Shown here piece after piece: positions 48,047-63,863 of a stretch of 64,000 bases of DNA; the first letter of the stretch is position 1, and every line of letters starts with the position of its first letter. The translations under genes and the position numbers were made by a program. The notes under the pieces were generated by a model, which saw nothing but the letters and a program-made list of their open reading frames with translations, was not told the DNA's origin and did not search any database. Source of the stretch: Phanerodontia chrysosporium (taxonomy: Eukaryota > Basidiomycota > Agaricomycetes > Polyporales > Phanerochaetaceae); NCBI GenBank assembly GCA_001910725.1, contig MJGA01000018.1:620001-684000 (forward strand), written 5' to 3'.

Positions 48047-48490
48047 ATGTCGACGACTACCAACCCCGAGAAAGAATACGTTGGCGGCTGTCACTGCAAG
48101 CGGTTCCGTTACAAGTTCAGACACGAGGCGTTCGACCACGGCGAGTCGCTGATCGACACCTGCACCTGCAGCATCTGTATGCAGAAGGGTGCCGTCTGGG
48201 CGTACGTCGCCCGCTTGTATCTGCTCGCCCATAATCACGCTCATCACCGGTCCCTTGGCAGAATGACGCCCGAGGCGCAGTTCGAGTTCACGGAGGGTAC
48301 GCTCGGCGAGCTGACGCTGTATGAGTTCCACAAGAAGGTCTTCAAGCACTACTTCTGCCCGACGTGCGGCGTGCAGCCGATCCTCACCGTGCCCGAGCAG
48401 CAGATGGTGTACGTGAACGTGCGCACGACGGATGATGTTGATGTGTCGAAGGTCAGGCTGAAGGTATTTGATGGGAAGAACCTGCTGTGA
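48047..48490 (+). CDS. GFA/CENP-V-type zinc protein, array copy 1
   Basis: Exons 48047-48201 and 48262-48490 give 127 aa. All zinc ligands of the GFA fold are present: GGCHCKRFRYKF (C-x-C), CTCSICMQKGAVW (C-x-C-x2-C) and HYFCPTCGVQPIL (C-x2-C). The family ending VYVNVRTTDDVDVSKVRL...FDGKNLL is also present. The Pfam name refers to glutathione-dependent formaldehyde-activating enzyme, but most fungal members are uncharacterised and may bind or conjugate other small aldehydes. The single intron lies just after the second zinc motif, at the same codon as in the other intact array members. The gene is intact. Confidence 0.87.
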   Translation: MSTTTNPEKEYVGGCHCKRFRYKFRHEAFDHGESLIDTCTCSICMQKGAVWAYVARLYLLAHNHAHHRSLGRMTPEAQFEFTEGTLGELTLYEFHKKVFKHYFCPTCGVQPILTVPEQQMVYVNVRTTDDVDVSKVRLKVFDGKNLL

Positions 48491-49339
48491 GGTGTTGGGT
48501 GTCGACTTCAAGGGTTGTGGGGTGGGCGACGAGTGCTCATAAAATTGCACGTAGGCGTGTACGAATCGAACTGTTAAGCGAACCTCCGCCCGACTTTGCT
48601 GCTTCGGAGATAGGATTTAGGTCTGATGAACCTGTGGGACGAGCATGCGCACGCGTCAACGAGGCATCATCACCCTCCAATGCAGGCAATCAATGATAAG
48701 CTGCGCTGTTACATGTTAAGTTGAGAATGTGTGCTTACCTGCGCTATTGCGTTTTCAGCGGGTCGTGGAGATGGCATTCTACTGACGGCGAGCAGATGCC
48801 GTTCGCGTCACTGCATATCCACCCTACACCCTTGATGATGAGCGTGCGGTGCAGTAGATGGTACCGACGCAAAACGAATCATGCAATCGGCATGTTACGA
48901 TGGCAGAAGCGAACGTAATGAAGGACTCCGTCAACACAGCCGGCGAAGCCTACTCGTGCAACTCCGTTGCTAGTTCTGAATTCTCCACGGATGCACATAC
49001 AGGACAGACTCGTTAGTGAACGACTCGTAGATGATGTGTGAGACGCTTGGAATCATTCCTCCTAAGACGCTCGAGCAGTACGAGCCTGCGTTTGGCCCGC
49101 CTTATTCTACACGGTCGACAAAGTCGTGATCATTGGTGTTACTGCTGATTACGCCACTAAAGTATGGTTTCCTGGCTGGCGCATAGGATAACGAGCGGTC
49201 AGCATCGTCGCAGGTACAGGTGTGGTGTAAAGGCAGCCATCCATACCGGTTCAACAACAAGGAATCTTCATGGCTCCTACCAGAGCTGGGCTAGGTCGTT
49301 CCTCTTTCCCGTATTATACCCTACCTGTGTTCATATTTT
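48491..49339. other. Intergenic region, no gene seen
   Basis: Spacer between GFA copy 1 and the dehydrogenase relic. No conserved frame was found. Confidence 0.4.
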
Positions 49340-49640
49340 CTGTCCTCCAGAAACGAGTTCATCCTCCAGCTTGAGGTTGGCGATGTGCGCACATGCACTT
49401 GTACAGGGCGATGGGGTCGTGGCAACCCCACGCACTCCCGCTGCGCTCGAGCCCCTCGGACGCAAGTACCCACGGATGCGCTCTTGGTGGTACCGCTCGA
49501 CATGACGAAGCCAGACGAGATTGTCGCGGCCTTCCGCGCCGCGAAGGAAAGTTTCAGACGCGTCGACGTCGTCTACTGCCGTCGGAGAGATAGAGGGCAC
49601 CCCGGACGCGGACGCGCGTGACTTAACTGGATGTGCGTCT
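49340..49640 (+). pseudogene. Short-chain dehydrogenase/reductase relic
   Basis: Three fragments in different frames match one continuous SDR stretch: GDGVVATPRTPAALEPL near 49408-49460, TDALLVVPLDMTKPDEIVAAFRAAKESF near 49470-49556 and VGEIEGTPDADARDL near 49578-49622. SDR enzymes have this order after the Rossmann beta-2 strand (R-x-P-x-x-L, then LDVTKPDEI, then the NAG region). The Rossmann GxxxGxG start and the YxxxK active site are absent and at least two frame changes are needed, so this is a non-functional remnant inside the GFA array. Confidence 0.6.
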
Positions 49641-49904
49641 CGCCATATCGGAGGCAGGCGTTCTCGTTGGGCCTGGCGTGCGCGTAGTTCGACGTGTCAA
49701 AGTCTCGCCATGAGCCACAATAAAGAAACAATAACTTGATAACAGAGTCAATACCGCAATGCGTATATAGAGGGATCGTCAAACCAAGTCCGCATACCGT
49801 TCTTGCAGCCATGTCGCCACCAGCATAGGAATAGTAGACCGGAGACCGCCCCTGCCAGATACTCCGATATCAGTCCAGGCACGGGCCGCTCGATCATGGT
49901 GAGA

Positions 49905-50165
49905 GCGAGGTCGAGACATGCAGCTGTAGCATCTATGCTCACAAAGGCGCGGTTTGGGCGTATGTGTCCTGCTTTACAGGTTAGATATAACACTGACCAC
50001 TGGCGTGAACGAGCGCCTGGGAGCAAGATCTCACTCACCGGGGGCACAGTAGGGGGGCTGATGCATTACTTCTGTCCAGCATGTGATGTACAGCTCATCC
50101 TGGACGTCCCGGAGGGGACGTTTGTGCACGTAAACGTACGCACCGCGAACGGGATGGAAGTAGGA
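49905..50165 (+). pseudogene. Decayed GFA-type gene, array copy 2
   Basis: CSCSIYAHKGAVWA at about 49918-49960 corresponds to the second zinc motif (with Y in place of a zinc-ligand C). After an intron-like gap, LMHYFCPACDVQLIL and VHVNVRTANGMEV at about 50058-50160 correspond to the C-terminal half. The first zinc motif is missing and the C-terminal F-D-G block is lost, so this is a remnant. Confidence 0.6.
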
Positions 50166-51223
50166 GGGCAGGGGGATCGAGGCAATGCTGTTTCACAGGA
50201 AAGACCTTCCGTAAACCTTGCCCATTGTGTGCCGCCCAATATATTGTGGATAAAGTTGGAAACAACGTACAAGAATGTCTTGGCACGAGTCGGCACGAGT
50301 CACCTATCGAGGACGAGGTGCTGACAAAACATCGGTACCGAGGTGCTGTGCAGGCATGTGCGGACTAAGAGGGACGATCACGCTGCGCGACGCGTAATTA
50401 GGCTCTTTCCGCCAGGTACGCGTCCCGCAGACCCCTATTTTCATTGTCAGATTGCGTGTCGATTTTGGCGCGACCAGCGCCGCGGAAATATAAGCAGGGC
50501 CCGCGCCCTCAACGGCGACCATACACCCTCATCGCCCAACAATGGCAGAGACGAAGGAGTACACAGGCGGATGTCATTGCAAACGGTTCTGCTACAAGTT
50601 CCACCACGCACCATTCGATAATGGTGAGCAGGACGTCGTCACTTGCAACTGCAGCAGGTGCAAGTCTGGCGGATTGCTGTTCGTGTGAGTGAAATACGTC
50701 GATCATAGCTGCCCGCCTACCTGCTGATGCGATATGAAGCTACATTCCGATAACCGCCTTCGAGCTCACTGTCGGCAACCTGGACGAGCTCACGTGTCAG
50801 AACTTTGAAAAGCGCCTCGCGAGATTAGGGTCTCGGGCTGCCCCGGGCGCTACCTGTCAAAGTCTCGTGATGGCCTTGTGAGAGGCCCATGAGATTGTCT
50901 CGATGCCGAGCCAAATCTCATGATGTCATCGCGAGCCAACCAGAAGCCTCGGTCAACATCACGAGGCGCTCACGATAATCAAAGGGATGAACGGCGGTGA
51001 GAACGTCGTGCACATCGTCCACAACTTCCCTCCACGCTGCGTCTGCTTTCCCCCTTCTATACTGACTTGAGCTTTGCCTTCCCGACGCACCGCAGACCTC
51101 ATATCCAGAAGATCCTACCACTGGCGTGAGTGCAGCGCTGTCTGGGCTCCTCAGTGACAATCTACTTACCACTGCTTGCCGTGTCGCCTCCCGTGCTAAC
51201 AGGTTGGCATCCCCCGGCTCAAT

Positions 51224-54200
51224 ATGGCTGGTGGAAGTCGTCGCAGGCGAAGAAGTGATGTTATGGAGTGCGACATCTGCCACGGGATGTTCGCAGAGGG
51301 AGGTTTCGGCCATCACTACGCGCGATGCCACCAGAAGAAGCAGGACGAGGAGGATGACCTTCGTGCCATGGCGCACCTTGCTCAGCAGAGCCCCAAGCGG
51401 AAGGCCAGTGAGTACAGCACCTTGTCATCTGGCCAAGACCTATCTCATGCCCTTGAACCTGCAAGAACGTCGTAAACGAACACATAGTACGGCCGGTCCT
51501 GCTCACGACGCCGTGGGAACGGCCATGAACCTGCCACCGTTACGTGAGTTCTCGCCATCGTTATTACCATTGCTCGTACTCAATCCATGTGCTGTCAAGT
51601 ACACACTCGCAACGCATCGCTTGGCCCTGGCGTGCAGGATGAGGGAGCTCAGGCAGAAGGTTCGTCGACGAATTACCTTTTTCAGTGTGGGATCGCTAAT
51701 GAGAAGGCCTCGTTATAGCAGTGCATGCGGATCTGCCTGTCGTCGACTTGCCACCCTCTCCCATACCGCCGCACGTTCAGCTACCAGCGCGCCCACTCCA
51801 GCAGCCGGCCCCAGTGCTCGAGCAGCTCACGTCGCCTGTTCCTTCACCTCAGGACGCACCCGTAGCAGCAGAAGGCTCGCACGCTACCACTTCGACCACC
51901 TCGTCGGCTCCAGAACACGAAATTCATGTGGAGTACCATCCTGCAAGCGGTCGAGCAGCTAAGACCAGCCCTATTTCCCAGTATGAGCGTGAGCGTCCAC
52001 CATGCCCATCGCCTGAAGGTCTGGACAAGGCGTACTCTCCATTCAACTCGCTGGAGGATTACCAGTTTGCCGAGCTCGCACTGGACGCAGGTTTGAAGAA
52101 AGAACAGGTGGACAAGCTGTTGAATTTCGTGACTGCAGCTCGGCATGGATCTTCAAAGCTGACCTTCCAGTCGTCAGCAGATGTTGACCGTGCATGGGAG
52201 CAAGCTGCGGCTTATCATCCACCAGTGCGCATCATGGGTTCACATACACATGTCTATAGTCTGTATTAATTTGCTGTATGAATTTCTAGTTTGAGAAGCA
52301 TACCTTCACAGTGGACTACCAGAACAAGCCTTACGAATATGAGGTATATTCCCGTGACCTATGGGCATGGGTGGAGACCATTGTCAAAGACCCAACTCTT
52401 GCATCACATTGGCAATGGGATGCGCAGCGACTTTCCAAGTGGGATGGGGAGAAGTGGGAGTCCTATTGGGAGGATCCATGCACCTCAGAAGATATGTGGG
52501 AGGTTCAAGTATGATATTTCATGCTGCATATTCTGCAACGCTGGTCACTAAACATAGATCTAGACTACATTGCAGGAAGCTGGCATCAACGGAAAGCCAC
52601 TGGGTATTATTCTCTTTGCTGATAAGTCCAAAATCTCCAGTTTTGGAACACAGGAAGGCTATCCTGTAGTTGCTCGCATAGCAAATCTGGATGACTCTAT
52701 CCGGAATGGCACAGGGTTTGGCGGTGGCTGTGTTGTCGGCTTTTTACCAGTGGTGCGGATACATACCATTGCAATTCCTGGAAATACTTACATATTTGTC
52801 TAGGTCAAAGATCGCCCCAGTGAAGAGAAGAAAACAGCTTGGGTGGACCACAAAAAACGAGTCTGGCATGAAGCTGTCTCATACATCTTACGCACAGTGG
52901 CACAGTGCTCTAAGACGGGCCATACAATGTGCTGCGGTGATCAAGTCATCCGCACATTGTTTCCATATATTCATATTTTATCTGCAGATTATGAAGAACA
53001 GTGTGTATTAATTTTTTCTGTGATAAGTGGATACTAACTTGGATAGATGTGTTATGTCTCTCATACGGGGCACTCAAGGGCTATGTTCCTGCCCTATATG
53101 TTTGGCCCCAAGTGATGAGTTATCAGACTTGCGTGGAGAATGGCCACTGCGCACAACAGAAGCAACACGTGCGCTTGTTGAAGCTGTTTATCCAACTAAA
53201 GCAGCTAGAGAAGAAGCTCTAAAACCTGAAGGGCTACGTCCAGTCCAGGTACCCATAAAGCATATTTGATGACTGTACTGCTAACATATTTATGTCAGAA
53301 CTGTTTCTGGGCAATTGCAAACACGTGCATATACAAGGCTCTATCACTTGATCGCCTGCATTCATATCACATTGGATTGTTTGGAAAGCACTTATGGGTT
53401 GTATTCAAGAAAATTGTCAACCACAAAGGATTTTCCCGACACCTTCGAGATATGATTGACAAAGGGTATTCCATTGCAGCTTTTAGCGAGTTTTACCTAT
53501 GGCTTATTTTCACTGAACAGTGCTGCTGCTATGCCACGATGGCGTGGTTTGCACCATTTCAAGGCGATTTTATTAGTCGACTTCACAGATGGCACCAAAT
53601 ATCAAGATCTCTCCAGGGTACGCTCTTTCATACATTTCAAACTTTCTGCTCACAATTTCTAGATTCTTGTGTTTGCTGCATGCAATGCTATGACCCGAAC
53701 ATCAAGTCCCGCAGGATATATGCTTCTTCAGCTTATTCGAAAGTACCTAGAGTGCGACATGTACCTGGGCCTGGAGGTGCACACGGAGACAACACTTCAG
53801 GCACTTGACAATGCAATCATTGAGTTTGGTGATATGCTCGATGTAAGCTCAGACTTATAATCTGTGTTACATCACATTATTGACGTAATGCCTTGCATAG
53901 AACTTCCGGGACTACTACGATGGTATACGGCCTGCAAAGGAAAAGATGAAGTCTTGGGATTTCCCTAAAGTTCATGCTCATAAACATGCAGTGCGTGATA
54001 TTAAGGGAAAAGGTGTTATTCAGCACATGAGCACTAGATTATCGGAAAAGTGCCATGGACCCATTCGCAAGTGGGTGAAGAATCGGACTAATAATAAAGA
54101 CATTTTCAGTCAGGTGAGTAGACAACACATTTACTATATCATAGACATTGAGTGATATTTGATAATAGGTGATCAAAATTGACCACCAATTCCTTTGCTC

Positions 54201-54968
54201 GTCCTCAATCCGGCACCGCATCAATGACTGGGAGGCGTGGGCACAGGAAAATGAAGACAGCAAGTTATTCACTGCCAACGAAGCCTTCCAGTTCGGACCA
54301 CGATACTTAGGGTCAAGACAGAAGCCTACAAGCTGTAAAGCACTAGAGCAGCGCAGCGTTACAGATAAAGCCTACAAGAACTTCACCAGCAATCTGCAGC
54401 TGACGTTAAAGCAGTTATATGCTGCTCGCAACAGCTCAGACACTCCATCACTCGATTCTGAGAGGCTAGCTGTACGTTCTATATATATATCAGTGTTGCA
54501 ATTGCACACATCTCATAATTTACCTATCAGATAACAGAATGTCGACTTGTCGAAGTTGATTTTGCATCAATAGTCACCTGGCGCACAAACACCGATCTTC
54601 TTCGCTGTTCGCCATCCTTCTTCGGAGAACCTCGATACGACAGCATCATGTTCCACGACTACGGAGATGTCGTCACGCATGCGAAGCTTGTCTCCGCGTT
54701 CGTCTGTCAGCTGGATGATGGCAACCGAGAGCCAATGCTCTTAGTGCAGCCTATGAAGCAAGTGTCGCGCAGAGTCATGGACCGTGAACTTGGCCTATAC
54801 CCACTCAAAGAAAATCCACGCCATCAATGCAGATTCATACCTTTGGTTTCACTCATTCGCGGAGCAGTTCTATATGAAGACAGTGCTCGAGCCAGTCACT
54901 ACTTTGCAGTTGACACTCTGGACTCTGACATGTTTCTCAGAATGAAGTCAGTATTCACAAAGCCATAG
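51224..54968 (+). CDS. Plavaka-type transposase, many exons
   Basis: The gene starts with a zinc finger, CDICHGMFAEGGFGHHYARCH, encoded from 51224 or the next ATG at 51263. Conserved Plavaka blocks follow in order through roughly ten short introns: NSLEDYQFAELALDAGL, TFTVDYQNKPYEYEVYSRDLW, HWQWDAQRLSKWDGEKWE, PLGIILFADKSKISSFG, KKRVWHEAVSYILRTV, CPICLAPSDELSDL, LDRLHSYHIGLFGKHLW, YMLLQLIRKYLECDMYLGLEVHTE, KVHAHKHAVRDIKGKGV, SIRHRINDWEAWAQEN, and the end block SIMFHDYGDVVTHAKLV. Every block is in an open exon and nearly all junctions have GT-AG. The acidic residues in LFADK and EVHTE are candidate catalytic positions, an inference. I saw no stop or frame break in the conserved part, so the transposase may be active. 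The first two exons are not fully resolved. Confidence 0.82.
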
Positions 54969-56715
54969 TAATTATATCTTTTTGCATCTTTATCAATTCT
55001 ACGCACAGAGACAAGTGGAGAAGTTGTGCATCTTTATCGATTCTACGCACAGAGACAAGTGGAGAAGCTGAGGATTCATCAGGAGAGCGGAAAGGTTTGA
55101 GTCTTTGTGGCGCTGATGTATTGATGCCATCTCAGCGCCGGCCCTCCGTCCGTTGGTCAACACAACCATGCGCTCACGCACTGGCGTACCACACGTAAGC
55201 TCCTCGTGCAAGCTTCAGCCCTGCGCCCCCACTGAAGCAGCCGCGTGCGCAATATTCAGAGCAGGCAGCTTCAAAGGCGAGGGCCTCCAGGTTCTACCCT
55301 ACAAATCCCAACTCAACATCAAGGTTTGTAGTCACTCCGTAGTCACTCCATGTCCCAACTCAACGTCAGGCTCATAGTCTCTCCAAATCCCAACTCATCC
55401 CCGACCAGATCGAATGAAGCAAACAACAGTTAGGCGTCAGTAGCAAAAGACCCAAGTGCCAGGCCACATGTCGTTCCCAGCAACCGCGCACGACTTCCAT
55501 CCATTTGCACGGGATTTGAGGTACGTAGAATCTACCTAACATCTACACTAACACTACACTTACCCAGCAATGCAGCTCCATCGCCCCCGCCCCCCTTCTT
55601 CTCGCACACCGCCAGCCTCGATCCGCGCAAACGCAGATGGCCTGCAGGCGAGGCACGTTTGTACGCCTTGAGCGTGCGCAATAGTCAGGAAGGTGAGTAC
55701 TGAGATCAGCATCGGGGCTCACGACGGATGCAGGACGTGACCGAGAGCGCGCGATGCAGTCAACGGCGCAGTTGAAGGCGCAGGAGCAGATTCCTAAAGC
55801 GGGAGAGAGAGTGAGTATCGAATGCGCGACGAAGACTGCCAGCGACGCACGATAGGAGCGCGAGTGTGAACGACACACAAGGAGCGAGAAGCAGCGGCAA
55901 GGTGAGGGGTGGGGAAGGGTCGGTAGGGATGTGCCAAGTGGGGAACAGATCAGCAAAGGCGCGGACGGCTGCTGTCCGAAGTTGGGGGCGAAAGGTGAGT
56001 TAGCGAGGGGCTTAAGGGTACCGAAGAGGTGTACTCACCTGCTCGACTCAACACCGCTCCCCTTGCAATGTAGGTCGCGCCTCAGTGTGCCCGATGCAGC
56101 CGCCACTGACCCTCCCAACCCCAACCCCAACCCCAACCCCTAGGAACCTGAACCGTAGACTTACACAGTCCGCCGCGTCAGCCGGGGGGGGGGGGGGGGC
56201 TCATGATTTGCAAGGCAGCGCTGTGCTCGGCGCGTCGCACCTGCGGGATTGGTTGGCTGCCAGAAGCGTAGCGTGCACTGCCCGGAGGCAGGCAGCTTGA
56301 GCCAGCTGGTTCTGACCGCCTCCGCGACATATGCAGCTTCACGCATCCACAGGGCTGGTCAGCCCCGCGGGCGCGTCGCGCAAATGTCGGGATAGCGGCC
56401 GAAAAACCGTGGGCAGCAGCAGCGGCGGTTGAGGAGCCGCGTCGCCCGCCCGCGCGGCGCATCCGTCAGGTTGGTCAACCCATCGGTGCGCGGCGCGGCG
56501 GCATGAGCGCACTCTGACCGACGAAGTGCAGAGCCCAGGCTGGTACTGGCGGGGAGGGGAGGGGGGAGGTGGTGGTTGGGGGGAAAGGAGCGCAAGGCGA
56601 AAATTTGAGGCCACGCGTGACCGCATCGAGTCACGCTCTCTGCGCGTGCAGTCACGGCAGGCCTCTGCGCTCTCCCTTCTCCTTCTCTCCTACCCCAACT
56701 CATTTCCCCCTCTCC
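54969..56715. other. Spacer between transposase and TET/JBP genes
   Basis: It contains a 44-bp tandem duplication (54983-55026 and 55027-55068, with TGCATCTTTATC and ACGCACAGAGACAAG in each), a (CCCCAA)n-like run at about 56114-56140 and a run of about 17 G near 56181-56198. No gene is supported; the 3' end of the transposase transcript and the promoter of the TET/JBP gene should lie here. Confidence 0.5.
54983..55068 (+). repeat. 44-bp tandem duplication after the transposase stop
   Basis: Two near-identical units differ at a few positions (CAATT versus CGATT). The first begins 15 bp after the stop codon. Confidence 0.75.
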
Positions 56716-56764
56716 ATGCCTAGTGTGATACCAGTAAGTTGCCACCGCTTCTCACCGAAGGGCT

Positions 56765-58374
56765 GTGCTTACCAGTTGGTCCTCCCTGCACGCCAAGGTG
56801 TCCCTTCCGACCCCGGGGGCCGACGACCCAGAGCACATCGCCCTCCTTTTGCGCGGATGCAGCATCAGCGCCCAACTTCGCGCTGCTGTTGAAGAGCGTG
56901 ATCAGCGCGAAGATCTCGGCCTCGGAGACACTGAAGATGGGCAGCATCTGCGGTATCCCCAGTCTCCCAGCCTCGATCCCGCCCTGCTAGACTCACCGCT
57001 CACATCCGCGCCCTCGTCACCAGAGCAGCAAGCCTCTGCACCCTCCTTCGACATTCCCCCGCTTATCCTCGATGGCCCCGCACGTCCACCAACGACATCT
57101 GCACCGCTAAACCACAAGAAGAGAAGCAAGTCTGCGAAGGCAGCCAAGCTCCGTGCGGCTGTTCGGCCTAGTGCGAAGAAAATACGGTCAAGTCTTTCGC
57201 GCAATCACCGAAAGCACCCCGGCGTCTTGCTCGAAGACTTCCGTATGCTGGAGCTGAAGACGGCGGCTCGAGGGGCTTGGATAGCGCTTCGCACCTCGGT
57301 GTGTAAACGTTACAGTTCACTGGAGGAAGTCGTGTCAGAAGGACTTCGTGTCGTGCGCTGGGACGGCCAGTGAGTGTTATTCCTTGTTCTAGTCTTCAAT
57401 GCTTACCCGACGGTGTCTAGAACTCCGACGCTGCTGATTGACGAAGACCGTGAAGTTTGCAGTGTGCTGGGAGGGTTCCCCGGCCTGCCCGAGGTCTGGA
57501 AGGGTGTGCGTGCAGAGGCGAATGACGCCGTGGCGGAGGCAGGGAAGAGCCTTCGATTTAGCAAGCACGGCGATCGACGTGGGCCGTTTCGCACCATTGC
57601 TGTCGGGGTGTCCTATGGAGGTGGCCAGAAGGTGCGTGCTGATATTCCAGCGTCATTGGCTCTACGCTAACGATCCGCAGCGGCCTGGCAAGCTTCGGCA
57701 CTCTAGGCACAACGAGAGGGTGCTTGCCCGCCTCATGGCCAATCCTGCAATCAAACGGATTGCCGGCTTCGCTAGCAGTACGTCCTTGGCCCCTTGAAAC
57801 GCGTACTCCCGCTCACCTGGCTGCAGGCGTGTTTGCTTTCTTCGCTCCCAAGATGTACCGCGACTATGCCACGAAACTTGACGCGCTGTTCGAACACTAC
57901 CCAGAACTCGATTACAATTGGAACAACAGCGTTTTCCCTGCGGCGTCGTTCAACTTCGGGCCTAACTCTGCGAGTTACGAGCACAACGACCACGGCAACC
58001 GCGCTGCCGGCTGGTGCTCGATATATTGCGATGGATCTTTTGACCCGCGGTATGGCGGGCATCTCATTTTACGACAATTTGGAATTGTTGTAGAATTCCC
58101 CCCTGGCTCCACGGTCCTCATTCCATCCGCGTGCATCACGCACGGGAATATTCCCGTACGAGAGGGCGAAACCCGGTGGTCCTTTGCTCAGTACGCGTCG
58201 GGTGGGTTGTTTAGATACGTTGAGTATGGCTTACGCTCTTGGGCGAACCTTAGCAAGAGCGAGAAAGAGAAATGGGCAGAGCGACGCGCCACCCGATGGG
58301 TAGAGGAGCTCAGCCTTCTCTCTCGTGTTGAAGACTTAGCTCGAGATCAATGTACTGCCGGCCTCCTAGCATGA
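56765..58374 (+). CDS. TET/JBP-family 2-oxoglutarate/Fe(II) dioxygenase (candidate 5-methylcytosine oxidase)
   Basis: Exons 56765-57369, 57421-57631, 57681-57777 and 57827-58374 join in frame to at least 487 codons; the true start is upstream and unresolved (ATG at 56716 is a candidate). The first 120 residues are Ser/Pro-rich, then a basic stretch with NHKKRSKSAKAAK. Known fungal TET/JBP blocks follow: GGFPGLPEVW, FRTIAVGVSYGGGQ, NERVLARLMANPAIKRIAG and FAFFAPKMYRDY. The catalytic core has EHNDHGN (H-x-D iron ligands), CDGSFDPRYGGHLILRQF, EFPPGSTVLIPSACITHGN (third His) and GETRWSFAQYASGGLFR (Arg for 2-oxoglutarate). All four expected residues are present. Relatives oxidise 5-methylcytosine stepwise in fungal DNA. 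Its position inside a transposon suggests a role in countering DNA methylation or marking the element, which is inference. Confidence 0.85.
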
Positions 58375-58864
58375 CCGTGAAAGTAATATACATGTAATCA
58401 GTGCTCAATACACCAGCGTGCAGGGCATTGACACCTTCGAAGCGAGGCTGGTGCGTGCACCTCGGCGCTTCTCGTACCTTTTCCTTCTTCCGCCACCTCG
58501 TTCTTCATGATCCTTCAACATTGCCCTCTTTCTGTTTCCCCCTCTCTTTAAAAACATATTACGTACATCTGTACCCATGCTCTACCTGCTATTCCACCAT
58601 GGGCGTCCGGTTGGCGGTTTTTACGTTGACATCCAGCACACATGTTTCGCGCAAGTTTCTGGCCTAACCGAAGGCTATGCTCACTAGCCAACTCCTGTAA
58701 GTGCATCATATCGCAGCTAACACCGGCATGCACCTCTGACGCTCACAGATTTTAGATAAATAGTTGCGTCGTCGCGCCAGACATCACGCACCAGTAGGTT
58801 CGTCCCTCGAACACTTGCCCACATCCTTCTCTCAGCAATCTTCTCTACCTCTACGCTCAACGCA

Positions 58865-61137
58865 ATGTCCAGCGACTCAGGTGACAATTCAACCAGTGAT
58901 GAGGAGCTCGAGTATGAAGAGGGCGACGTAAGTGAGGGTGAGGACGAGGGCACAGACGACGACGGGACCGCAGCCGAGAACGCAGCCGAAGGTGAAGACA
59001 ATGACCTAGACGGCCATACTCGTGCCCTCCTCCAGGTCCCTCGAGCACCCAGCTCGCTAGCGACAACCGATGAGCTTCGAGAGGTGAGCTCTATGGTGTC
59101 TAACTTGGCAGAATGTACCTCACGCACCTGATTTCGCTTTTGCAGGCGCTGTCTAGTCTCCAGCTGCGCTATGCTGAGCTGACAGTTTTGTATCGGGAGA
59201 TGCGAAGGGAGTTCAAGGTTTTGAAAGGTGCAGCTGTGAAGAAGCGCGATCGCACTGGGGGGAAGGGTCCGGCCGAGCTCGCCGTCTTCGAGGGTGACAT
59301 CATAAGGGCCGGCAAGAAGTCCACCCTATTCTTCGACATCTGGCCTCAGCCAGATGCATTTGAAGCGAGAGCTCGGCCCAATATTGACCTTCTCTCCCCC
59401 ACACGCTTTGCGAACGGGCGAAACGAAAAGCGCGCGCGTCAGGCGGAGGTCTTCGACGCGATGCCAGATCTCACTGCGCCGTGCAGACTCAAGCTACGTG
59501 AGGCTATGGGGTCAGTCAAGTGGATCCAGAAAGTGGTATGTCCTGTTGTTCTATCTATTGGCGGCGTACTGAGCACATTTGTAGTATACATCTGCGGCTG
59601 GAACGCAGAAGAGTCATCTTGTTGACAGTGCGAAGAAGCACTTCTTGCTATGCCTTCCCGAGCATCTCCGCCACCTGCCGCTGCACGACCTCCAGGGCCT
59701 AGCCGAGCACCCTGATGCTATGTCCCTGCGCAGCACTCCCGACGACCCTATGCCCCCATTCGTCTCGCCCCCGAGTACGCTGACGACCATCACTACATCA
59801 TGAGAAGCCCTATCCTTGTCAAGGTAAGCCTAATTAGTATCGAGATGTCTATTTCTCATGTCGTTACGCAGCTTTTCATCGTCTGTATGATCAGCAAGTC
59901 GGGGCTCACCGCAGGTCGTGTGCGGAAGAGCAAGGCCGCAGGAAGTACGGGGCAAAGCAAGGCGACCGCGAAGAGCAGCGGCGGAAACAAGTCGAAGGCT
60001 GATATGTGGGATGCTGTGGGCGTTATCAGGCCAGAATTCATGGCTTTCAGCTTTGTTATGGTGCAGTTTATTCCCTTTCTTCCGCTTTCAGGTCACTTAA
60101 TCTCCTTACAGTGCCGATTTGTCTTGTCGGGCGACGAGACCTTCACACCGAAAGGCTCCTACGACTACCAAGGCGACTACAACTTCTGGAAGAAAGAGCT
60201 CATCATGCGGTGGCACGAACCTGAAATGAAGGAGACGCGTCGATGGTGGAAGGCATGTGTATGGAACGGGCACGACCTTGACAACCTACACTTCGACGGT
60301 CCTCAACTCGACAAGGCGCTCACGCCTGCTCAAGCCCGCGCGCAAGCCCTCTTTGCGAAGATGGGTCAGCAGCCACGCGTCTCGGCCGAAGAGTCGGTTT
60401 CCTCGCCGCCCACCCATGCCACCATCTCGGCTACCCACTCTTCGCTCGCTCCCTCTGCCGGCCCTCCATTGCCCTCCATCGCAGGGGCTGCTGTGCCTTC
60501 GCATCCGTCGGCTCCCGCCCTGCCTTCACATCCGTCGGCTTCCGCCCTGCCTTCGCATCCGTCGGCTCCTGCTCCGCCTTCGCATCCGTCGGCTCCTGCT
60601 GCGCCTTCACGTCCCTCAGCTCCCGCCGTATCTCTGCATCTCCCCGCTTCCGCCTCATCTACGACGTCTGGCCGTAGTCGCATCTCTACGCAGGCTGCAC
60701 CAATGCCTATCCCCAGTGCACCCGATGAATCCGAGATCGACACCTTGGAGACCGGCGTTGCGGCAATGACTGTCCGTGCACCTACGCCAGGACCTGCCAC
60801 TGAGGTTGCCGACACACTTCAGGGTCCCCGCGATCCCACTCCTGCGCCCGAGCCCGAGCCCCCCGCGAAGCAGAAGGCAAAGGCACCTGCAAAGGGCAAA
60901 CCCAAGAAGAAGGTCGCCCCTGAAGCTGCAGAGCCAGATGTCGAGCGCGTCGCCCCGCCGAAAGCGAAGGCGCAGCCCTCCAAACCGACGAGCGCACGCG
61001 CAGGCTCTGCTCGTCTTCGCGCAGCTTCAGAGCAGGCAGCAGAGGACTCTGAAGAAGAGCCACCTCTCGCGACGAAGGCGAAGACCAAGGTTATGCGCCG
61101 TAGTGCGAGGGCCAATGCTCGGGCCGCCGACAAGTAA
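58865..61137 (+). CDS. Transposon-associated protein of unknown function (third gene of the element)
   Basis: Exons include 58865-59083, 59146-59535 and one from 59585; later boundaries are uncertain. The acidic start MSSDSGDNSTSDEELEYEEG leads to ALSSLQLRYAELTVLYREMRREF (coiled coil), FFDIWPQPDAFEARARP, KSHLVDSAKKHFLLCLPEHLRHLP and LAPEYADDHHYIMRSPILVK. Then come KADMWDAVGVIRPEFMAF and CRFVLSGDETF...YQGDYNFWKKELIMRWHE, blocks I know from many agaricomycete proteins near Plavaka and related transposases. The C-terminal 200 residues are low complexity: near-repeats of PSHPSAPA (about 60493-60640), then basic A/K/P-rich tracts ending RRSARANARAADK, which may bind DNA. The frame of the LPEHLRHLP exon and that of LAPEYADD differ by one base near 59740, so a frameshift or an unseen splice exists there. 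Confidence 0.6.
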
Positions 61138-61980
61138 TGTTGCCGTCTTTGTATACATGATATTCTTTTGTTGTTGCACATTCCCTCTCTCTCTGTTAGG
61201 CTCCTGGAGAGTCTTGGTTACAGTATCTTTGTGCTTTCGCCAGAATTGATTCATTGCCTGGTGCAACACTCTGCCTTCTCATGAGGCGATGCTTGAGACT
61301 CATGTGCGCCTCACGAGGTTCCTAGAAATGCGTCCTCATTAATGAAGTAACAATACAGATATGGCCCTTTAGCGTAGACGTTTTGACTCGTGGTAAGTGA
61401 ATTCAAGGTCGCTGGTTCGAATCCCACAACTAACTCGGAAAAGAAACCTCTAGGATGATCATAAACCGCGATAGTAAGTAATTGATACTGTAATATGTTC
61501 AAAAAGCTAACCCCCCCAAGTAAGCAGGTAAGTCCAGTAAGGTAAAGCGGTAAGTAATCAGTAATTGAACAGGTTCAAAAGCTAAATTCCACAGTAAATA
61601 GGTAAGTGAGGTGGTAAGTATAGAAACTGACTCGCTAATGAAGGGTAATAAAACCTCGGCGCTATTTTTTTTTTGCTTGGCTCTCGCTGCGCGCTCGCGA
61701 GACATCACGAGACAATCAAAGTCATCACGATGCATCGCGACGGTCTCCCTGTATCATATCATCGATAGACCACATGAGGTAACTATGAGATATGTGGACT
61801 CCTCATGAGGCAAGTATGAGATATCGTCTCTGTCTCACGAGACCACATGAGGCGCTAGCAGCTCTCGCGAGACACTCGCGAGGATTAGGTTTTCCTCGCG
61901 ATGTGCCGTGATCCAGCGCTCTGCCTCAACCAATCGTGAGGCATCACGGCGCCTCAAGGGAGGGCGTTAAGAGTTCTGAC
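61138..61980. other. 3' terminal region of the transposon
   Basis: Non-coding right end. It holds a Pol III-type A/B box pair (see 61370), a stretch of short GGTAAGT-containing near-repeats at about 61466-61616, a T10 run near 61667, and from about 61690 the dense subterminal CTCGCGAG / TCACGAG / ATGAGGC motifs up to the terminal repeat. Confidence 0.55.
61370..61424 (+). other. tRNA-like Pol III promoter pair, possible SINE remnant
   Basis: TAGCGTAGACG (61370-61380) fits the A-box consensus TRGYNNANNNG, and GGTTCGAATCC (61414-61424) is an exact B box, 33 nt apart as in tRNA genes. The sequence does not fold as a complete tRNA: the acceptor stem is missing. A tRNA-derived SINE nested in the DNA transposon is the simplest reading. 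Confidence 0.4.
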
Positions 61981-62516
61981 ACGCGTTACACGTTCAACAC
62001 GAAGCAGTGCTACCATCAATTCTGCCCCACCTGCGGAACGGAGATCATGGGCAGGGTAGGGGAGAAGGCCGGGATCAACGTGCGCACTGTAGACGGCATA
62101 GATTTAGAGAAGTTGAAGTTGAAGTTCTTCGACGGAGCCAAGCTGCTATAGGGAAAGCCGTGGAATACAGCGAGCGGTCCTGTAAAGTCCTATCCTTGAC
62201 AAAGGGTCACTTTCTTTCCTTGCATTGTCAATATTTAATAGCGACTTTACCGATGTTCCCTGTCGACAGGCGAAGATACGTGTCCTAGCATTGTGTGGTA
62301 TGAGTGACTCCCACAGGGGTATGATTGGAATCACCTGTCATCCGGAGCACCCACAGGCGTGATTTGCGAAGCACAGTCGAACCACGCCCCGCTGACCGCA
62401 GTCGATAACATGCCGGGGCATGCTGGAATCTCCTAGAATGGCTTGAGCGCACGGATCATCCATAAAGTCGATGCATTCTGGTTAGTGGGGCACCCGAACC
62501 TTCTGTTCATCTCAGT

Positions 62517-62953
62517 ATGTCTCTCCAGCCTCCTACAAACACAAAGCAGTACACCGGCCACTGCCACTGCGGCAAGTTCGCCTACACATTCACACATACT
62601 TCATTCGAGAACGGGGAGAGCGAAGTCTACAGCTGTAACTGCAGCATCTGCTCTGCGCAGGGCCTGCTAATGCTGTAAGTCTTAGACATCTACGCTCTAC
62701 ATCACGACCGCTCACCTATCGACCTTGCAGACTTGTCCCCAAGAAAGATTTCGCGTTCACAGCGGGCACACTCGAGGACTTCACGCGCTACACCTGGAAG
62801 ACGGGCAAATACCCTCACTACTTCTGCCCAGTCTGCGGGACGAAGTGCGTGATTGCGTACGACGACACTGTGTCGGTAAACGTGCGCACGGTCGACGGCG
62901 TGGACGTGACGAAGCTTAAGTTGACGCGGTTCGATGGCGCGAGCCTGCTCTAA
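62517..62953 (+). CDS. GFA/CENP-V-type zinc protein, array copy 4
   Basis: Exons 62517-62674 and 62731-62953 give 126 aa. Zinc motifs are YTGHCHCGKFAYTF, CNCSICSAQGLLML and HYFCPVCGTKCVI, all intact. The C-terminal block VSVNVRTVDGVDVTKLKLTRFDGASLL closes the domain. The intron is at the family position just after the second zinc motif. There is no leader or extra domain. The copy lies 366 bp after the 3' half of the split copy and 427 bp before copy 5, on the same strand. Apparently functional; substrate unknown. Confidence 0.88.
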
Positions 62954-63379
62954 ATGCGCGAGTGTCCCGGAGACGGGGATAGACCAGGGAAGACGAGTCG
63001 CCGGGTACCCTGTAGTACTTCGTACGTTGTAAAATCAGCGGTGGTCTACAGTTCCATTGTCAGCGAATGGAGATTTGGGGCGGTTGGATCCACGTGCATC
63101 AGGGGTACAAACAAATACGAGATTTGAGCTGTCGGGATGAAGTTCTCTGGCAAGTACGCGGCGACCAATCTGCGTAGGAAATTTGGTGCAATAGGAAGAT
63201 CAGCTGACTCACTATTGACATTCCTTGAACGGCCGCAATGGGCGGAAATGACTCGTGATGGGAAGCACCGCATATCGCGGCACCGATAGTGGCATATCCG
63301 GGTATGAGCTCGAGGGCTTGCATAAAGAGGCGACCTGCAGCGAATTCAGCCCCGAGTACCAAACTCGAATACTTTCACC

Positions 63380-63863
63380 ATGTCTGCTACACCCGGTACA
63401 TCACCTACGATAACGAACTACCAGTCTGCTGCAGCTGAAACCAAAGAATACACGGGTGGATGCCACTGTCAGCGATTCCGGTTCAAGTTTTCACATCCTT
63501 CGTTTGAGAATGGAGAGATGAAGGTCATGAGCTGCAACTGTAGTATATGCAATCAGCATGGCTTGTTACACATGTGAGCATCGCTGGGTTGGTGCAGCTT
63601 GCCGCCAGAGACCACTCACCGGTATCCCGAGCAGCTACGTTCCGAGGAAGCGCTTCGAGTTTACGATAGGCCAGCCAGAGCAGCTATCCTCTTATCGGCT
63701 GGAGGGAAAGTCGACCACGCACCACTTCTGCACGAACTGCGGGAGTAACATTATCGTCCAAAATGAGGAAGCGGGAGAGGTTGTCGTCAACGTGCGCGCC
63801 GTGGATGGTGTAGAAGTGAGCAAGTTGCGCTTGACCAACCTTGACGGGAGAAACAAGCTATGA
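63380..63863 (+). CDS. GFA/CENP-V-type zinc protein, array copy 5
   Basis: Exons 63380-63573 and 63635-63863 give 140 aa. A 20-residue Ser/Thr/Ala-rich leader precedes YTGGCHCQRFRFKF, then CNCSICNQHGLLHI across the junction and HHFCTNCGSNIIV. The end is VVNVRAVDGVEVSKLRLTNLDGRNKL. All zinc ligands are present and the intron is at the common position. It differs from copy 4 in about half its residues, so the duplication is not recent. It is the last gene in the window. Confidence 0.87.

Follow-up and report, generated by a model that had tools for sequence, protein, structure and literature searches.

A Plavaka transposon with a predicted TET/JBP-fold dioxygenase gene in a GFA gene of Phanerodontia chrysosporium

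The element and its target gene

We analyzed a stretch of 64,000 nucleotides from the agaricomycete Phanerodontia chrysosporium (assembly GCA_001910725.1, contig MJGA01000018.1, positions 620,001 to 684,000), which we call the window. The window corresponds to C56:620001-684000 in the numbering of the searched genome (39.0 Mb, 145 contigs). It contains a Plavaka DNA transposon with three genes, which code for a transposase, a dioxygenase with a predicted TET/JBP fold and a protein with a DUF6698 domain. The element lies within a GFA gene. The following features were delineated in window coordinates.

50795..61981, plus strand: whole transposon, 11,187 bp, TGTCAGAACT...AGTTCTGACA; ends taken from a second copy at C124:552581-563777 with unrelated flanks
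50795..50804, plus strand: left terminal inverted repeat, perfect over 10 bp, TGTCAGAACT
61972..61981, minus strand: right terminal inverted repeat, perfect over 10 bp, TGTCAGAACT on this strand
50793..50794, no strand: target-site duplication CG, left copy; relatives have the 2-bp duplications TC, CA and TA
61982..61983, no strand: target-site duplication CG, right copy; from the flank and the rejoining of the GFA gene
51224..54968, plus strand: Plavaka transposase, 985 amino acids, 13 exons; D345, D449, E717, C468-x2-C471, H693-x3-H697
56716..58374, plus strand: predicted TET-fold 2-oxoglutarate/Fe(II) dioxygenase, 481 amino acids, 5 exons; H352-x-D354, H405, R416; product identical to public protein P0001
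58865..61137, plus strand: DUF6698 gene (third gene); start codon set by eye, frame change in a run of C near 59,770
50542..50794, plus strand: 5' part of the GFA gene; exon 1 at 50542-50684, intron at 50685-50739, start of exon 2 at 50740-50794
61984..62151, plus strand: 3' part of the GFA gene, rest of exon 2 with stop codon; from the joined frame, Pfam GFA and the paralogue alignment

A genome search with part of the dioxygenase gene first led us to the second copy, on contig C124, and 30 kb around it were compared with the window. The blastn alignment spans window positions 50794-61981 with 99.73% identity and stops there, the flanks being unmatched. Since this copy begins and stops at the same places between other flanks, the ends at 50795 and 61981 are proven independently of the GFA gene. 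The inverted 10-mer by itself is no proof of the ends, because it is found six times in the window with at most one mismatch against 3.7 expected, which is within chance (19 of 100 shuffles contain as many). An additional exact match lies within the element at 53293. The original prediction had been made from the letters of the window; its element of about 11.2 kb with perfect 10-bp inverted ends, three genes on one strand and boundaries fixed by two independent lines is confirmed by the C124 copy and by the GFA frame. We note that the right flank of the C124 copy resembles, by eye, a cytochrome b5-like gene. A CCCAAC array (window position 56113) and a poly-G run (56183), both between the transposase and the dioxygenase gene, are of unequal length in the two copies.

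The GFA gene provides the second line. With the element and one CG removed, the segments 50542-50684, 50740-50794 and 61984-62151 join into an unbroken frame of 121 amino acids, and the rejoined protein matches Pfam GFA with 41.9 bits (cut-off 24.3, E = 1.2e-10). The split gene is part of a tandem cluster of five GFA genes (48071-63848), the others being located at 48071-48487, 49838-50162, 62541-62950 and 63434-63848; the gene at 49838-50162 looks partial. For comparison we used unbroken paralogues of the same genome. Those at 48071-48487 and 62541-62950 and a further one on C80 align across the break point, and thus insertion of the element explains the split. The halves had been predicted to rejoin in frame at a single ACG codon. 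The rejoining holds, but the junction is a 2-bp CG duplication: a 3-bp duplication ACG was rejected because the related elements on C61, C57 and C80 duplicate 2 bp. In total, four of the six full elements described below are flanked by a perfect 2-bp duplication (C56 CG, C61 TC, C57 CA, C80 TA).

The genes of the element and their relatives in the genome

For the transposase model 12 introns were set manually at GT-AG sites; its frame is free of internal stops, and the protein matches Pfam PF18759 with 169.4 bits (cut-off 26.3, E = 1.6e-49). This agrees with the prediction of a Plavaka transposon with an apparently intact transposase. In an alignment of 19 sequences (that of the window and 18 of 93 homologues) D345, D449, C468, C471, H693 and H697 are invariant and E717 is nearly so. 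In our own reading of the alignment these residues would be those of the Plavaka motif described in PMC12730594, in which C(2)C and H(3-4)H lie between the second D and the E of the DDE triad.

The spliced dioxygenase model has an open frame and is identical, letter for letter, to P0001 across four introns. The proteins of C56 and C124 differ at three residues, where P0001 matches the window copy. A fold search with the predicted model has CcTet, CMD1, NgTET1 and TET2 at the top ranks, CcTet being first, at 10-16% identity to the listed TET chains of solved structure; the model thus points to a TET/JBP fold. H352, D354, H405 and R416 are invariant in 25 aligned sequences. By analogy with CcTet, the first three would form the iron triad and R416 would bind 2-oxoglutarate. 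The motif is HxD, not the HxE of the PE-type, in all 25 aligned sequences and in all seven genome copies listed. The Pfam family Tet_JBP (PF12851) matches the last-exon frame alone with E = 0.2, it matches 11 of the 25 aligned sequences at E ≤ 1 (best 9.3e-5), and the genome searched exon by exon yields two weak matches, neither above the cut-off.

The third gene matches PF20414 with E = 4.9e-9, the query carrying an X at the frame break. A hidden intron at this break was rejected since the two frames abut. The public protein P0119 is unbroken at the run of C and spans three introns of the gene; the residue at 59893, the only one in its range that differs between C56 and C124, is that of the window copy. 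The break may be a homopolymer assembly error, although both genome copies agree on it. The original prediction called the element complete in appearance, which is true for the open frames of transposase and dioxygenase and not for the broken frame of the third gene. We found no paper on DUF6698 in the open-access literature.

The three public-protein searches (dioxygenase, transposase, DUF6698) were limited to scoring the 8,000 candidates with the most words in common. P0001 and P0119 both have the source label 'lgn', with longest contigs of 1,691 and 2,418 bases. Our assumption is that this source is Logan and that spliced transcripts underlie the two proteins, the alternative being a splice-aware gene caller; a non-splicing caller is suggested because P0119 begins with M at a GTG codon. 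Phanerochaete sordida has relatives of the dioxygenase (PsYK624_034310, 70%) and of the DUF6698 protein (PsYK624_034300, 44%), with consecutive locus tags and both on contigs of length 843,127.

The dioxygenase DNA matches eight places in the genome. Six are full elements, namely C56, C124, C61 (11,657 bp), C57 (10,867 bp), C80 (12,698 bp) and C91 (10,975 bp). All six have TGT..ACA ends and the order transposase, dioxygenase, DUF6698 on one strand; C56, C124 and C61 start with TGTCAGAAC and C57, C80 and C91 with TGTCGGAAA. The original prediction had proposed a genome search for further copies and would have been contradicted by copies of the three genes without these ends. The near-identical C124 copy shares both ends, and in this one genome the other copies carry this end type. 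At the seventh place (C63) transposase and dioxygenase are present, no DUF6698 match was found within 22.5 kb, and the sole listed inverted-repeat pair with a matching duplication (10 bp, 3457/19562) does not begin with TGTC. At the eighth (C69:119334-120918) a dioxygenase of the same family stands alone, as the 20 kb examined contain no transposase match; it is possibly a stranded or host-kept copy. Weaker dioxygenase matches are also located on C72, C80, C2, C127, C100 and C32, and at C127:26337-34414 and C100:19817-25424 there are each two equal-scoring N-terminal pieces in opposite orientation.

Plavaka is common in this genome, as judged from 102 exon-level Pfam matches. A separate family on C102 and C2 (L047, L048; 6.9 kb, copies 99.93% identical) has CATCTGG..CCTGATG ends, close to those of PlavakaB, and duplications TG and TT; the genome-wide dioxygenase search gave no match at its two places. 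A divergent Plavaka at C1:1660001-1670000 (L049) combines a transposase with DUF6698, and the 10 kb read there contain no dioxygenase match. It is a possible pre-capture state and a hint that DUF6698 joined the transposase earlier than the dioxygenase. Transposase and DUF6698 matches also occur together at C81:154736-169909.

The catalytic exon of the dioxygenase is stop-free in all eight copies. For 27 pairs, the near-identical pair excluded, the proportion of nonsynonymous differences (pN) is 0.06-0.27 and that of synonymous differences (pS) 0.55-0.84; the ratio of the corresponding substitution rates (dN/dS) is at most 0.16 where dS is finite. The exon is under purifying selection. Together with the predicted fold and the open frame this bears out the expectation of an intact-looking dioxygenase of TET/JBP type. 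On the same terms, pN is 0.04-0.42 for the transposase exon tested (7 copies) and 0.27-0.39 for the DUF6698 exon (6 copies).

Trees were calculated with C124 omitted, that of the transposase from 21 chosen homologues (P0113 was dropped; row L047B is 31% filled and has a very long branch). Pruned to six elements, the transposase and dioxygenase trees agree: ((C56,C61),(C57,(C80,C91))), with C63 outside. The pN values of the two genes correlate with 0.97 over 15 pairs, which are rounded values from pairs that are not independent. In the transposase tree five dioxygenase-bearing elements form one clade (support 100/97), outside of which C63 is found. A single uptake of the dioxygenase was considered and dropped as the trees do not support it. 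Two P. sordida proteins are closer to the window dioxygenase than that of C61 is; therefore the dioxygenase family is older than that split or has moved between species. Because the six full elements hold the gene in the same place, under selection and with like branching, we regard the dioxygenase as a long-term member of the lineage and not as a chance capture.

Comparison with known elements

The original prediction referred to a known association of TET/JBP dioxygenases with KDZ-type transposons. Plavaka is not KDZ-type, as we find a Plavaka transposase and 2-bp instead of 7-8-bp duplications, and Plavaka is grouped with EnSpm/CACTA by Kojima (2025, PMC12730594). We saw this survey in part, and the statements in this section refer to the part seen. 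It describes TET-carrying Plavaka from Agaricus bisporus and Gymnopus confluens, all of them PlavakaB, and the enzyme of Plavaka is listed there as PE-type (HxE). Like these, the window element unites a Plavaka transposase and a predicted TET/JBP-fold dioxygenase in one agaricomycete element. Unlike these, it has TGT..ACA ends in place of CATCA..TGATG, 2-bp duplications and HxD; its ends are thus not those of PlavakaB. A DUF6698 gene is not mentioned for the A. bisporus and G. confluens elements in that part of the survey.

TGT..ACA ends with 2-bp duplications are those of PlavakaA. By ends and duplications, not by a tree, the element would accordingly be PlavakaA-like, but it carries a gene of predicted TET fold whereas the TET-carrying Plavaka of the survey are all PlavakaB. 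For Polyporales only TET-carrying Kyakuja were found there. Kyakuja and Zisupton carry AG-type TET, relatives of CcTet; they share with our element the HxD motif and the transposon-borne state, and CcTet is the nearest fold. They differ in transposase class and in their 7-8-bp duplications, and at the sequence level our enzyme does not match CcTet significantly. A link between Plavaka and TET was hinted at earlier, since Iyer 2014, as cited by Kojima, implied the association in five fungi, including two Polyporales.

Subterminal repeats are also known from CACTA/En-Spm elements such as soybean TgmR* (PMC4219821, seen in part), where hypomethylation near these repeats goes with activity and methylation with its loss. 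TgmR* is, in contrast, a plant element with CACTA ends, a 3-bp duplication and another repeat sequence, and the part of the paper seen mentions no dioxygenase.

In the open-access literature, PlavakaA and PlavakaB led only to PMC12730594, as did TET dioxygenase with Polyporales and transposon; TET dioxygenase with Phanerochaete led to no paper. What is new is the combination of PlavakaA-type ends, an HxD enzyme and DUF6698.

A putative role in escape from methylation

The alignment of C56 and C124 covers 11,187 sites, of which 20 differ, and has one 6-bp and one 4-bp indel. Eighteen of the 20 are transitions; 14 of the transitions fall in CpG, which accounts for 24.6% of the C/G bases (P = 3e-6). 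The transition rate in CpG is 10.7 times as high as at other C/G bases, and seven CpGs were lost per copy. Such an excess is left by deamination of 5-methylcytosine; the element is thus probably exposed to CpG methylation, and prevention by the enzyme is incomplete. PF00145 methylase matches are present in the genome. Low CpG methylation on active transposons in Marasmius oreades (among PMC8290104, PMC9674265 and PMC8889193, seen in part) fits the premise.

Both ends of the element are rich in the palindrome TCRYGA.

50795..51194, no strand: left subterminal region, 6 TCRYGA in 400 bp
61582..61981, no strand: right subterminal region, 10 TCRYGA in 400 bp

The motif was picked by eye on the C56 element, where these 16 sites compare with 0.7 expected from the interior; outside the element the window has 1.16 per kb. 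In C57, C61 and C91 the terminal 2.4 kb hold 43 TCRYGA sites and the remaining sequence 30, and the next of 16 palindromes of the same form reaches 5. C80 has the motif within 400 bp only on the right (8 over both ends against 1.5 expected), apparently because of extra sequence near its left end.

We suggest, and consider likely, that an autonomous-type Plavaka transposon, related to CACTA/EnSpm, inserted into the GFA gene with a long-term TET/JBP-fold dioxygenase which probably oxidizes 5-methylcytosine placed by the host. The DDE transposase would recognize the TGTC..GACA ends and probably, in addition, the TCRYGA palindromes behind both, and insertion of the element into this agaricomycete gene would make the 2-bp duplication; ends and duplications as such are observed. 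The dioxygenase, encoded between transposase and DUF6698 gene, could then oxidize 5-methylcytosine on the element, which would keep its genes expressed and the subterminal sites bindable. The raised CpG transition rate and the dense palindromes near the ends support this putative anti-silencing role.

Several points weigh against this proposal. The flanking bases of C124 (TG/GA) form no matching duplication, and those of C91 (TG/TT) agree in one of two bases. The frame change of the third gene is found in C56 and C124 alike. For the transposase no near-identical public protein turned up, the best reaching 50% among the 8,000 candidates scored, a length-limited set. P0001 has no Tet_JBP match at E ≤ 1, and phmmer and profile searches against PDB sequences gave no TET, including CcTet, up to E = 10; the TET label therefore rests on the predicted fold. 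The activity of the enzyme is predicted, and the anti-silencing role, including oxidation of methylcytosine in the element's own DNA, is putative. The mutation spectrum stems from the two element copies alone, without an unmethylated control, and the CpG decay in both copies means that methylation reaches the element in spite of the dioxygenase. TCRYGA shows no preference for CpG: 45 of the 67 terminal sites in five elements (C124 excluded) contain one, about as many as random R and Y would give. Further on, the dioxygenase-bearing transposases are not one clade: the label needs two changes, as C63 is separated from the others by C1 and by two homologues whose cargo is unknown. The related Plavaka on C1, moreover, lacks a dioxygenase match. 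In the dioxygenase tree the Plavaka label needs three changes, the context of the other rows being mostly unknown.

Unlikely, in our view, is a dioxygenase which uses the TET fold on another substrate or for another product (for example 6-methyladenine, an RNA base, thymine or a hypermodified base) and which marks the element DNA instead of erasing 5-methylcytosine. The low identity to the solved TET chains listed, only 10-16%, would allow for this, CMD1 and CcTet use the fold for other chemistry (PMC12730594, seen in part), and C363 faces the position of CcTet Asp337, which is needed for 5-methylcytosine (by naive offset from HxD, not by structural alignment). However, the four nearest folds all work on DNA with 5-methylcytosine, and the CpG decay suggests that this is the mark met by the element.

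We judge it quite improbable that the dioxygenase is captured passenger DNA which rides along without helping the element. The isolated gene on C69 and the C1 relative would be expected for a passenger, whereas purifying selection across the elements, the same position and order in six of them and the like branching of both genes argue against it. That the locus is not one transposon at all, and a segmental duplication or assembly join only resembles an insertion, can practically be dismissed: C124 lacks a target duplication, but the same ends occur at two unrelated places, four diverged elements share the end type, four perfect duplications differ in sequence and the GFA frame is restored.

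Returning to the proposed removal of host methylation, we also put forward a bolder version, which is possible but on balance doubtful. The enzyme may be a fourth sequence type of transposon-borne TET/JBP, with HxD and beyond the sequence reach of CcTet, acquired by a PlavakaA-like lineage that already had DUF6698. It might act in cis by keeping CpG-containing subterminal palindromes unmethylated for binding of the transposase or the DUF6698 protein. If true, such a cis-acting dioxygenase would do by enzymatic means what sequence-specific anti-silencing does in plant elements.

In summary, the element points to a transposon-borne family with predicted TET fold that is missed by Pfam Tet_JBP. 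Its ends are known, two near-identical copies and four diverged relatives exist in one genome, and a demethylase-like gene has long moved together with a transposase. With such a set the debated idea that TET is carried by transposons to escape methylation therefore becomes directly testable in one fungus.

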